From NCBI RefSeq assembly GCF_041468085.1, contig NZ_CP121017.1:1839501-1903500 (forward strand): a stretch of 64,000 bases of DNA. Direction: 5' to 3'. Below are positions 50,118-53,568 of the stretch, one piece after another. Origin of the DNA: Tistrella mobilis (GTDB taxonomy: Bacteria; Pseudomonadota; Alphaproteobacteria; Tistrellales; Tistrellaceae). Below the pieces are notes generated by a model. The model was not told the DNA's origin. It did not search any database and saw only the letters and a program-made list of their open reading frames with translations. The translations under genes were made by a program, and so were the position numbers. Position 1 is the first letter of the stretch, and each line of letters begins with the position of its first letter.

Positions 50118-50151
50118 CACGTCTCCTGACAGCATCTTGTCAGGAGACGTG
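50118..50151. promoter_or_regulatory. 14-bp-arm inverted repeat, likely WYL-regulator operator
   Basis: CACGTCTCCTGACA (50118-50131) and TGTCAGGAGACGTG (50138-50151) match perfectly around GCATCT. It lies 50 bp before the ABM-like gene and just after the MarR/ECH gene. No T-run follows on the minus strand, so an operator fits better than a terminator. Confidence 0.65.
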
Positions 50152-50163
50152 AACGCATCGTGA

Positions 50164-51405
50164 TCAGCCGGGTTTGGTGAAGTCGGGCTTCCGCCGCTCG
50201 GCAAAGGCGGTGAAGGCCTCGCGGGCCTCGGGGCTTTGCAGACGCTCGAAGAACAGCCGGCTTTCCGTGTCCATCACCGTGGCGATGGCGGCCGCGTCGC
50301 GCATCAGCCCCTTGGTCGCCTTAAGCGCGCCGATCGGCTGCAGCGCAAGCCGGCCGGCGGCGGTGCGTGCGGCGCCGAGCACATCGTCGGCGGGCAGGGC
50401 CGCATTGACCAGGCCGATCTCGGCCGCGTCGAAACCGCTCAGCACCTCGCCCAGGGCAAACATCGCGAAGGCGCGGCGATGGCCGATCGCGGCCGGCAGC
50501 AGCAGGCTGGATGCCGCTTCCGGCACCAGGGCCAGGCCGACGAAGGGGGTGGAGAGTTTGGCATCCCGGGCGACATAGACCAGGTCGCAATGCAGCAGCA
50601 TGGTGGTGCCGATGCCGACCGCCTGGCCCAGCACGGCCGCCACCACCGGCTTCTGCATCCGGGCAAGCTGTTTCAGCACCCGCTGGACATGGCGCACCGC
50701 CGGGCCCTGGCCGGCGGCGATCTTCGCGAAATCGCTGAGGTCGTTGCCGGCGGTGAAATCGCCGCCCTCGCCGCGGATCAGCACCACGCGGATCGCATCA
50801 TCGGCCTCGGCCGCTTCCAGCGCGTCGGCGACGGCGCCGTACATCTCGTTGGTGATCGCGTTCTTCTTGGCCGGGCGGGCGAAGACGATCTCCATGATCC
50901 CGTCGGCGGTGGTCGTGCGGATATCGTCGGTCACGATCGGTGACGTCATGATGGGGGTGCTTTCCTGATCCTCGGGCGGAAGATCGGCATCGCGGTTCGT
51001 GCCGACCGTCTTCAGCCAATGCGCGATCACCGCGCGCTCCTCAGGCGACAGCCCGTGGGCCATGCGGCGGGTGAGGTCGTTGGCGCGGCGCGCGGCGATC
51101 CGGCGGATCGCCTCGCCACGCTCGGTGAGCCGGAGAGTGACCGCCCGCCGGTCGGCCGGATCATCGGTGCGGGCGACGAGCCCGGCCGCTTCCAGCTTAT
51201 GGACGAGGGTCGAAGTGGCGGACTGGCCAAGATCCAGCGCCGCCCCCAGCGCCGTCACCGACGACGGCCCGCGCTCCCCCAGCACGAACAGCGCCGCCGA
51301 TTGCGAGGTGGTGATGCCCAGATCCTCGATCCCCGCCTCGGCGATCGCCATCACCCGCCGGTTGGCGGCGGCCAGAAGGTGGATCAGGCGGGGTGGTTTC
51401 GACAT
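50164..51405 (-). CDS. MarR regulator fused to enoyl-CoA hydratase/isomerase
   Basis: One uninterrupted 413-codon frame encodes two complete proteins. Residues 1-150 are a MarR winged helix (LGITTSQSAALFVLGERGPS, then LGQSATSTLVHKLEAAGLVA, DDPADRRAVTLRLTERG). After a linker (DLPPEDQESTPIMTSPI) residues about 160-413 are a crotonase-fold enzyme with oxyanion hole FTAGNDLSDFAKIA and a GLALVPEAASSLLLP segment like delta3-delta2-enoyl-CoA isomerases. The ATG at 51405 has GGGAG upstream. MarR proteins such as CouR bind aromatic acyl-CoA, so a CoA-thioester-sensing fusion is plausible. Internal translation from the Met in PIMTSP could also give a separate enzyme. Confidence 0.85.
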   Translation of the reverse strand: MSKPPRLIHLLAAANRRVMAIAEAGIEDLGITTSQSAALFVLGERGPSSVTALGAALDLGQSATSTLVHKLEAAGLVARTDDPADRRAVTLRLTERGEAIRRIAARRANDLTRRMAHGLSPEERAVIAHWLKTVGTNRDADLPPEDQESTPIMTSPIVTDDIRTTTADGIMEIVFARPAKKNAITNEMYGAVADALEAAEADDAIRVVLIRGEGGDFTAGNDLSDFAKIAAGQGPAVRHVQRVLKQLARMQKPVVAAVLGQAVGIGTTMLLHCDLVYVARDAKLSTPFVGLALVPEAASSLLLPAAIGHRRAFAMFALGEVLSGFDAAEIGLVNAALPADDVLGAARTAAGRLALQPIGALKATKGLMRDAAAIATVMDTESRLFFERLQSPEAREAFTAFAERRKPDFTKPG

Positions 51406-51423: not shown

Positions 51424-51487
51424 TGCATCGACGTCGAAGTATATGCATCGACGTCGATGCATTTCAATATCCATCGACGTCGATGTA
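51424..51487. promoter_or_regulatory. Three MarR-type operators with core ATCGACGTCGA
   Basis: Site A is TGCATCGACGTCGAAGTA (51424-51441), site B the perfect palindrome TGCATCGACGTCGATGCA (51444-51461) and site C CATCGACGTCGATG (51472-51485). Centres are 20 and 26 bp apart. They fill the gap between the ligase stop and the MarR/ECH start, so autoregulation is very likely. Confidence 0.85.
51438..51467 (-). promoter_or_regulatory. Sigma-70-type promoter of the MarR/ECH gene
   Basis: On the minus strand, -35 TTGAAA (51467-51462) and -10 TATACT (51443-51438) are separated by 18 bp. That spacer is exactly operator B, so a bound repressor would occlude polymerase. Confidence 0.75.
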
Positions 51488-51489
51488 TC

Positions 51490-53424
51490 TCAGCCGAAGA
51501 CGACCCGATGCGGCACCGGGAAACGCCCCAGGATCTGCTCCACTCGATCGACCAGCGCCGGCCGCTCCTCCTCGGGCAAGGGGGTGCCGTCGGCAGCGGT
51601 CAGCGTAACCACCGCGCAGGTGCCGAGCCGATCGTCGGGACCGGTCGCAACAGTGGCGGCCACACCATCCAGCGCGGCCAGTTCGGCCGCATAGACCCGG
51701 TCGGTGGCGATCTGGCGCAGCGTCGGCTTGAAGATCTTGCCGATCGCGGTCACCGGCATCTCGGCCAGGATGATCACCTCATGCGGGGCGGCCGGCCGCT
51801 CGGGCACCCGCTCGCGCGCCCAGGCGACCAGCTCGTCGGAGGTGGCGGTGGTGCCGGGCTTCAGCGTGACGAAGGCGACCGGGATCTCGCCCGCATAGGC
51901 ATCGGGGCGGCCGACGGCGCCCGCCAGCGCCACGGCGGGGTGGGCGTGCAGCACCTCTTCGATCGATTGCGGGTCGATGTTGTGGCCGCCGCGGATGATC
52001 AGATCCTTGGCGCGGCCGACCAGGAAGATCCGGCCCCGGGCATCGATACGGGCCAGATCGCCGGTCGAAATCCAGCCGTCGCCGACGAACAGCCCGGCAT
52101 CGAACCGGCTCTGTTTGTAGCCCGAGATGGCATTGGGGCCCTTGAGGCACAGCACGCCGATTTCGTCGATGGCGGCATCACGCGCCACCTTGCCGTCGGC
52201 ATCCAGGATCACGGTCTTCATCGGCTGGTACGGAAAGCGGATGCCGACCGAACCCGCCAGCGCCTCGCCATAGGGCGGGTTCACGGCCGAGGCGCAGGTG
52301 CCCTCGGTCAGGCCGTAGCCTTCCAGCAGCTTGATGCCGGTCAGCTCCTCGAAGCCGCGGATCACCTCCAGCGGCAGGGGGGCGGCACCGACCACGGCGA
52401 AACGCAGGCTGGAAAGATCGGCGCCGGCCACCGGCACCTGCATCAACGCGGTCAACACCGTCGGGACCGAGGAGAAGGTCGTGACCCGATAGCGCTCGAC
52501 GATCTTCCAGAAATTGCGGATCAGATCGGGGTTGCGATAGCCGGCCGGGGTGGCGAGCAGCACCCGGGCACCGGCCATGAACGGTGCCAGGCCGGTGACA
52601 TGGACGGCATTGACATGGAACAGCGGCAGGCCCGACAGCGTGCAATCGGCCGGCGACATGTCGATCACCCGCGACAGGATCCAGCCCATATAAAGCTCGT
52701 TGCGGTGCAGATGGCGGGCGAGTTTGGGCGTGCCGGTGGTGCCGCCGGTGTGGAAATAGGCGCAGACGTCGTCCGGGCCGGGTTCCGACCAGCCGACCGG
52801 CCGGTCGGCGGGGGCGGCGGTGAGCAGGGCCCCCCAGTCCTTCACCTTCGGATGCGCCGCCATGTCCACCGGCCCGCCGCCGACCTTGATGATCGCGGTG
52901 ATGCCCGGCAGGTGCTCGGCCGCGGCCAGCGCCTTCTCCCAGAGGTCGAGCCCGGGGATGGGGCCGGGGGCCAGGATCAGCTTCGCATCCGCCGCCTCGG
53001 CGATTTCGACGATCTGGTCGATGCCGAGCAGCGGGTTGATCGGCGCCGCGATGCCGGCCGCCTCTGCCCCCCAGAGCGCGATATGGGTTTCGGGCAGGTT
53101 GGGCATCAGCATGGCGACGGCATCGCTGCGCCCGAGACCGAGAGCCGCGAAAGCGTTGGCGGCCCGGGTCACCATCTCGAAGAAGACGGTGTAGCCAAGC
53201 TCGCGCGGGGTCTCGTCGGCGGTGCCGGCCGACAGATGGGTGATCGCAGGGGCATCGCCATAGGCCATCGCCGACCAGCGCAGCGCGTCATAGGTGCTGG
53301 TGAAGGCCAGACGCTGATCCAGCGGCATCTCGGTCTCGACCCGCTCGACATCGGCGATCGAGGCGATGCGGAACCGGGGCCCCATCGGGTGACGGGTGGC
53401 GGCGGGACTGGTCGTCATGGGCAT
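51490..53424 (-). CDS. Acyl-CoA synthetase (AMP-dependent ligase)
   Basis: The 644-residue ANL-superfamily enzyme has the P-loop YFHTGGTTGTPKLARHLHRN (near residue 255), LLEGYGLTEGTCASAVNPPY, the hinge GWISTGDLARIDARGRIFLV and the catalytic lysine in VTAIGKIFKP. It activates a carboxylic acid to its CoA thioester; chain length or aromatic preference is not evident. The gene precedes the MarR/hydratase fusion on the same strand, suggesting a shared pathway. Starts at 53424 (MPMTTSP) and 53418 are both possible, with GGGAG upstream. A palindrome separates it from the divergent SDR. Confidence 0.9.
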   Translation of the reverse strand: MPMTTSPAATRHPMGPRFRIASIADVERVETEMPLDQRLAFTSTYDALRWSAMAYGDAPAITHLSAGTADETPRELGYTVFFEMVTRAANAFAALGLGRSDAVAMLMPNLPETHIALWGAEAAGIAAPINPLLGIDQIVEIAEAADAKLILAPGPIPGLDLWEKALAAAEHLPGITAIIKVGGGPVDMAAHPKVKDWGALLTAAPADRPVGWSEPGPDDVCAYFHTGGTTGTPKLARHLHRNELYMGWILSRVIDMSPADCTLSGLPLFHVNAVHVTGLAPFMAGARVLLATPAGYRNPDLIRNFWKIVERYRVTTFSSVPTVLTALMQVPVAGADLSSLRFAVVGAAPLPLEVIRGFEELTGIKLLEGYGLTEGTCASAVNPPYGEALAGSVGIRFPYQPMKTVILDADGKVARDAAIDEIGVLCLKGPNAISGYKQSRFDAGLFVGDGWISTGDLARIDARGRIFLVGRAKDLIIRGGHNIDPQSIEEVLHAHPAVALAGAVGRPDAYAGEIPVAFVTLKPGTTATSDELVAWARERVPERPAAPHEVIILAEMPVTAIGKIFKPTLRQIATDRVYAAELAALDGVAATVATGPDDRLGTCAVVTLTAADGTPLPEEERPALVDRVEQILGRFPVPHRVVFG

Positions 53425-53543
53425 GCGGGGCGGTCTCCCTTGGTTCTGTTTTTTCAGGCCTGGTGTTGCCGGATGATGCCCGTTCCGGGGCGCCCGGTCG
53501 AGACGCGAGAGCGGTATGTCCCGACCTGTGACCGGTGTCGCAG

Positions 53544-53568
53544 AATAAATGACCAATGGTCATTTATT
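53544..53568. promoter_or_regulatory. TetR-type palindrome between ligase and SDR genes
   Basis: AATAAATGACC (53544-53554) and GGTCATTTATT (53558-53568) match perfectly around AAT. The inner TGACC-N3-GGTCA is typical of TetR-family operators. It lies in the divergent promoter region, and a TetR gene is encoded 1.4 kb away. Confidence 0.7.

Follow-up and report, generated by a model that had tools for sequence, protein, structure and literature searches.

The analysed window is a 64,000-nucleotide stretch of the Tistrella mobilis genome (NCBI RefSeq assembly GCF_041468085.1, contig NZ_CP121017.1, positions 1,839,501 to 1,903,500 of the forward strand). On its minus strand, at 50164..51405, lies one open reading frame of 413 codons, which starts with the ATG at 51405, ends with a stop codon at 50166-50164, contains no internal stops and encodes a MarR-crotonase fusion of 413 AA residues. 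Pfam analysis gave a MarR_2 match at residues 29-88 (E = 3e-14, profile positions 1-61 of 61) and an ECH_1 match at residues 167-411 (E = 8e-47, profile positions 3-250 of 251), and the MarR and HTH_27 profiles also scored over their cut-offs on the N-terminal part. These near-full-length matches bear out the original prediction, made from the DNA letters, that one stop-free frame holds both a MarR winged helix and a crotonase, each complete. It had also been envisaged that resequencing might reveal a stop codon; the frame is unbroken and stop-free in all three Tistrella genomes, which share 96-97% identity, ruling out sequencing or assembly error as the source of the fusion. Among named genomes, the closest to this one is T. 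mobilis KA081020-065 (96%). An alternative in-frame ATG further upstream, which would yield 436 AA residues, was rejected because it sits upstream of the predicted -10 element, leaving the Met at 51405 as the likely start.

The MarR winged-helix domain (residues 1-136; 50998..51405, minus strand), supported by Pfam, AlphaFold and Foldseek, is followed by a linker (residues 137-158; 50932..50997, minus strand) and the crotonase domain (residues 159-413; 50167..50931, minus strand). Modelled alone in AlphaFold, the MarR part reached a pLDDT of 91 and showed the wing (residues 77-93) and each of the six helices. In the model of the whole protein, most of the crotonase part scores >90, with some blocks at 79-85, and residues 134-152 fall below 50, corresponding to a predicted disordered linker. 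The linker, which holds M153 (ATG) and V158 (GTG), is thus modelled with low confidence and is probably flexible.

The MarR domain

The wing motif of the MarR family, DxRxxxxxLT, is present as DRRAVTLRLT, and D85, R87, T94 and G97 are invariant across 27 MarR sequences, with the wing strands found in the model. Helices 1, 5 and 6, which form the dimer interface in this family, occupy residues 7-29, 95-115 and 121-136 of the AlphaFold model; the dimer itself is predicted. By both sequence and fold, the closest solved relatives are the BpsR structures 6pcp and 6pco (Foldseek TM 0.85 to 6pcp), BpsR being a regulator that responds to 6-hydroxynicotinic acid.

It had been suggested that this MarR may be of the CouR type. 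CouR and other acyl-CoA-responsive MarR repressors (PMC4737184) resemble the fusion in the MarR fold and in repression within CoA-thioester catabolism, but CouR is a stand-alone protein of low similarity, and its structures (5cyv/3fm5) gave a far weaker match than BpsR. In CouR, Arg36 and Arg38 contact both the CoA phosphates and DNA (PMC4737184). By-eye comparison with the text of that study revealed no equivalents of these residues in ITTSQ, the segment with which helix 2 begins, with the caveat that some acyl-CoA-responsive homologues also lack them. On this comparison, CouR-type acyl-CoA sensing by the fusion MarR appears unsupported.

A crotonase domain with an isomerase-type active site

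The active-site region of the fusion (TPFVGLALVPEAASS) was compared with those of human ECI2 (TPFSHLGQSPEGCSS) and rat enoyl-CoA hydratase (QPEILLGTIPGAGGT). E296 (50520-50518), located in the motif PEAASS, aligns with the catalytic Glu of ECI2 (PEGCSS) and is invariant in 44/44 ECH sequences. The two catalytic Glu residues of crotonase proper are not present in the fusion; in the by-eye alignment, their positions (rat E144 and E164) hold F288, likewise invariant in 44/44, and the variable A314, respectively. At the oxyanion-hole positions, G264 and G266 are invariant and A219 occurs in 34 of the 44 sequences. A Foldseek match to 5ve2 (E = 8e-23) supports the crotonase fold, and the closest solved structures include the Bosea isomerase BoECI (6lvo) and OdaA of P. 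aeruginosa (7bor), with ECI2 slightly further away; identity to solved structures in the comparison with human ECI2 and BoECI (6lvo) is 30-44%. The match of E296 to the ECI2 Glu, the replacement of both hydratase Glu residues and the presence of isomerases among the closest folds indicate that the domain is probably a delta3,delta2-enoyl-CoA isomerase-like enzyme, making the earlier label of hydratase probably wrong in detail. As the catalytic Glu is retained, loss of catalysis seems unlikely. Human ECI2 and BoECI (6lvo) share the crotonase fold and the PEnnSS catalytic Glu with the fusion but, unlike it, are monofunctional, with no attached DNA-binding domain.

Promoter and putative operators

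A sigma-70-type promoter, TTGAAA-18-TATACT (51438..51467, minus strand; 10/12 matches, with 0.1 expected in shuffles), reads towards the fusion gene and is accompanied by three 18-bp palindromes. The perfect palindrome TGCATCGACGTCGATGCA (putative operator 2, 51444..51461) fills the promoter spacer exactly, TACTTCGACGTCGATGCA (minus strand; putative operator 3, 51424..51441) lies over the -10 element and the predicted transcription start, and TACATCGACGTCGATGGA (minus strand; putative operator 1, 51470..51487) lies upstream of the -35 element. All three Tistrella species have kept the predicted operators and promoter intact. The palindrome cores differ in other lineages, where TTCGCATGCGAA, ATCGCATGCGAT, TTCACATGTGAA and TTCATATATGAA are found. 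The consensus TAnnTCRnnnnYGAnnTA occurs near the MarR start in 26/27 loci bearing a MarR-ECH pair against about 0.008 expected per locus, an expectation computed from the remaining sequence of these loci; as the same loci supplied the consensus and served to test it, the figures are an illustration. This motif test replaced a test for any 18-bp dyad in front of MarR, which had too little power in several loci. Separately from the motif count, the spacing of the operator pair agrees between Tistrella (-56/-36) and Hyphomonadaceae (-57/-37). From the recurrence of this motif at the MarR start, we infer that the fusion gene is under negative autoregulation via the palindromes at its own promoter, a reading that appears well supported.

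The same palindrome is present elsewhere in the Tistrella genome, partly within coding sequence, which complicates the reading of a dedicated operator, and these other copies are explained only in part. Matches from a genome scan were mixed, several of them within coding frames, and were not read as a regulon. In one Tistrella locus (L098:5022-5096; G000 C1:422021-422095), three copies form a 75-nt block that is read in frame (CIDIDA..YIDVDA..YIDVDA) inside the coding frame of an NRPS condensation domain and looks like an in-frame palindromic insert; T. mobilis also carries three spaced copies. In another (L097:5043-5102; G000 C4:3558942-3559001), two copies 42 bp apart lie between the genes for the two permeases of an ABC transporter of the branched-chain amino-acid type, and both other Tistrella genomes have a pair spaced by the same 42 bp. 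This pair may be either an operator or a dispersed repeat.

Genes flanking the fusion

The neighbour upstream of the fusion gene is an acyl-CoA synthetase gene of the PRK07529 family (51490..53556, minus strand; 753 bits against a cut-off of 632). The family assignment agrees with the earlier suggestion that a neighbouring gene product makes acyl-CoA. A closer tie to the fusion found no backing, given that the predicted operator and promoter serve only the fusion gene, downstream of the synthetase gene, and that no acyl-CoA synthetase gene was found beside the separate-gene pairs of other genera, many of these loci being covered with flanks of 1.5 kb. Just downstream of the fusion gene, a perfect 14-nt inverted repeat with a 6-nt loop (CACGTCTCCTGACA...TGTCAGGAGACGTG; window positions 50118-50151) precedes a small ORF and a gene for a WYL-domain regulator; as it has no T-run, it is perhaps a candidate operator of that regulator.

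Separate-gene relatives and origin of the fusion

Outside Tistrella, in Hyphomonadaceae, Caulobacter and further families of Alphaproteobacteria, separate adjacent genes encode the orthologous MarR and ECH, with the gene order unchanged and gaps ranging from -4 to +18 nt. Many of these gaps are -4 nt, where the MarR end and the ECH start share a 4-bp ATGA overlap, as in Hyphomonadaceae, many members of the large-genome family f171, f42, f63 and others. In other f171 members, f10 and one Caulobacter MAG, MarR and ECH lie in one frame and are separated by one stop codon and 12-18 nt. In one genome (G1100, loci L125/L135), MarR ends with TAA and the ATG of the enzyme follows in the same frame 3 nt later, one stop codon away from a fusion. 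Paraburkholderia, Brevibacterium and one further genome display an alternative arrangement, in which a similar MarR gene is located near the enzyme gene on the opposite strand.

The search of other genomes that had been proposed with the original prediction found the fusion in the three Tistrella only: no second stop-free frame spanning both domains was detected among the ~1,420 genomes searched, although the searches were samples that applied E-value cut-offs and scored few candidates in each genome and could therefore miss unrelated MarR-crotonase fusions. Borderline long frames in eight other genomes and some more were rejected as independent fusions, each proving to be a separate pair or to have no MarR match. 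The Tistrella MarR shares 44% identity with the MarR of a Hyphomonadaceae pair (E = 8e-30 in a single comparison; tblastn E = 6e-25), a stronger match than the best one within its own genome (E about 3e-10). In gene trees, the Tistrella MarR groups with Hyphomonadaceae (88/95 support) on a long branch and the position of ECH is unresolved, so the trees do not prove that MarR and ECH were inherited together. The ECH start of the relatives (ATG ACC GAC) aligns with V158 in Tistrella (GTG ACC GAC; GTG at 50934-50932), which suggests that the MarR reading frame moved into the frame of the enzyme upstream of the old ECH start. Given that no other fusion appeared in the genomes searched, the Tistrella gene is, as far as these sequences indicate, a lineage-specific joining of a conserved, translationally coupled MarR-isomerase pair. 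Our literature search found no paper on the separate MarR/crotonase (PRK06023-like) pairs of Alphaproteobacteria.

Translation of the fused frame

The Shine-Dalgarno sequence at the MarR start is normal (-6.6 kcal/mol). The internal ATG, anticipated near 50947 and located at 50949-50947 (M153), has a value of -4.3 kcal/mol with a long spacing of about 12 nt, near the average background value of -3.4, and the GTG of V158 has no match to speak of (-0.2 kcal/mol); the enzyme starts of most separate-gene relatives fall at roughly -5.5 to -9.3 kcal/mol. These values favour one main product, which would be used as an uncleaved polypeptide and beside which a minor internal product is possible. The DNA of codons 143-174 is identical in the three Tistrella species. 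Synonymous conservation at the junction is borderline (P about 0.05 from three close genomes), an equally long invariant run occurs elsewhere, and because the three genomes are so close, the persistence of the fused frame is a weak sign of selection.

Discussion

Taken together, we propose, with a probability of about 0.62, that this gene encodes an autorepressed MarR-isomerase fusion that derives from, and replaces, a coupled two-gene operon. In the ancestral operon, a MarR repressor gene would have been followed by a translationally coupled enoyl-CoA isomerase gene, until the ATGA overlap between the two frames was lost through an indel, or the single stop between them through a substitution; with the frames joined, the 1:1 supply of MarR and enzyme would have become covalent. 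The MarR part would dimerise, bind the three palindromes overlapping its own promoter and repress the gene. The signal would be a small molecule that binds the MarR pocket, most likely an acyl-CoA or its parent acid; the ligand-bound MarR would leave the DNA and more of the same fusion protein would be made. The tethered crotonase domain would supply beta-oxidation by isomerising 3-enoyl-CoA to 2-enoyl-CoA. With the repressor and the enzyme that it most likely controls now in one gene, a single protein probably keeps its own synthesis in check and also acts on a metabolite from the same pathway. In other lineages, MarR most likely controls the fatty-acid enzyme whose gene lies beside its own.

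Several alternatives bear on the join itself. The fusion may be functionally neutral, a lost stop having been tolerated without mechanistic consequence because the linker is flexible; its occurrence in one genus, the short distance of the relatives from a fusion (a single stop codon or frameshift), and a linker slightly less conserved than the domains all fit this possibility, which we regard as doubtful though worth serious consideration. The complete domains, invariant residues and intact operators and promoter in three species argue against decay, yet not against neutrality of the join. It is unlikely that the locus yields the full-length fusion together with a free enzyme started at the ATG at 50949 or the GTG at 50934, in the manner of the free isomerase of the relatives: Tistrella has preserved an internal ATGA and an AGGA motif, the junction DNA is identical in the three species, and the relatives begin their enzyme at the aligned position, most of them with good Shine-Dalgarno sites, but in Tistrella the match of the internal ATG is near background and the GTG has none.

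Other alternatives concern how the protein would sense and what it would bind. The crotonase domain could itself be the sensor, with acyl-CoA in the active site altering DNA binding by MarR and turnover resetting the repressor. The intact catalytic Glu is compatible with such a role, and there is precedent in kind in BzdR, whose C-terminal shikimate-kinase-like domain senses benzoyl-CoA, and in the synthetic Q1 chimera of BzdR, which regulated its promoter and kept kinase activity (PMC3602430). Against it stand the MarR proteins of the relatives, which have no attached enzyme yet the same kind of operator, the predicted disorder of the linker, and the observation that enzyme activity prevented induction by Q1 in vivo (PMC3602430), making this explanation quite improbable. 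We consider it very unlikely that the palindromes are a dispersed Tistrella repeat rather than operators of the fusion MarR: the copies at several other sites, including the NRPS frame and the gap between the permease genes, would suit a repeat, but in other families the same half-sites recur at matching distances from the MarR start, and one palindrome exactly fills the spacer of a good promoter. A regulator that senses and consumes its own ligand, as had been suggested from the sequence, is possible. Crotonase relatives form trimers or hexamers. A full feedback loop has a very low probability in our estimate: the acyl-CoA that releases MarR would be destroyed by the enzyme domain at the promoter, so that repression would reset with catalysis, and a crotonase multimer would keep several MarR dimers joined, letting them grip all three operators simultaneously.

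Among known systems, the alphaproteobacterial MarR/crotonase pairs come closest to the autorepressed fusion, with orthologous domains in one and the same order, a tight translational coupling and a putative operator of the same class at the MarR start; they make two proteins, whereas Tistrella has no stop or frame break and has a third putative operator. BzdR and Q1 (PMC3602430) likewise combine a DNA-binding domain, a linker and a domain with an enzyme fold in a repressor of an acyl-CoA pathway, with three operator regions at the promoter, but BzdR pairs an XRE-type HTH with a shikimate-kinase fold and its natural C-terminal domain no longer has enzyme activity, whereas the fusion keeps its catalytic Glu. 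CDY/CDYL (PMC6408431) also carry an N-terminal gene-repression domain, a chromodomain, and a C-terminal crotonase fold in one polypeptide, and CDYL has been reported as a crotonyl-CoA hydratase (PMC6408431); these proteins are eukaryotic, their chromodomain reads histones and they contain no MarR, so the analogy is one of architecture only. As anticipated, no described MarR-crotonase protein was found in the open literature, in a search missing most subscription journals, and the architecture is very rare.

The Tistrella gene is a real, rare fusion of a known kind of operon, and its interest lies chiefly in its being a natural experiment that captures the transition of a coupled regulator-enzyme operon into a single regulator-enzyme protein. 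As the unfused state is preserved in many relatives, some of them one stop codon away, the effect of fusing on regulation is directly testable, and the operator consensus gives a testable prediction for a widespread, apparently unstudied MarR-isomerase operon.
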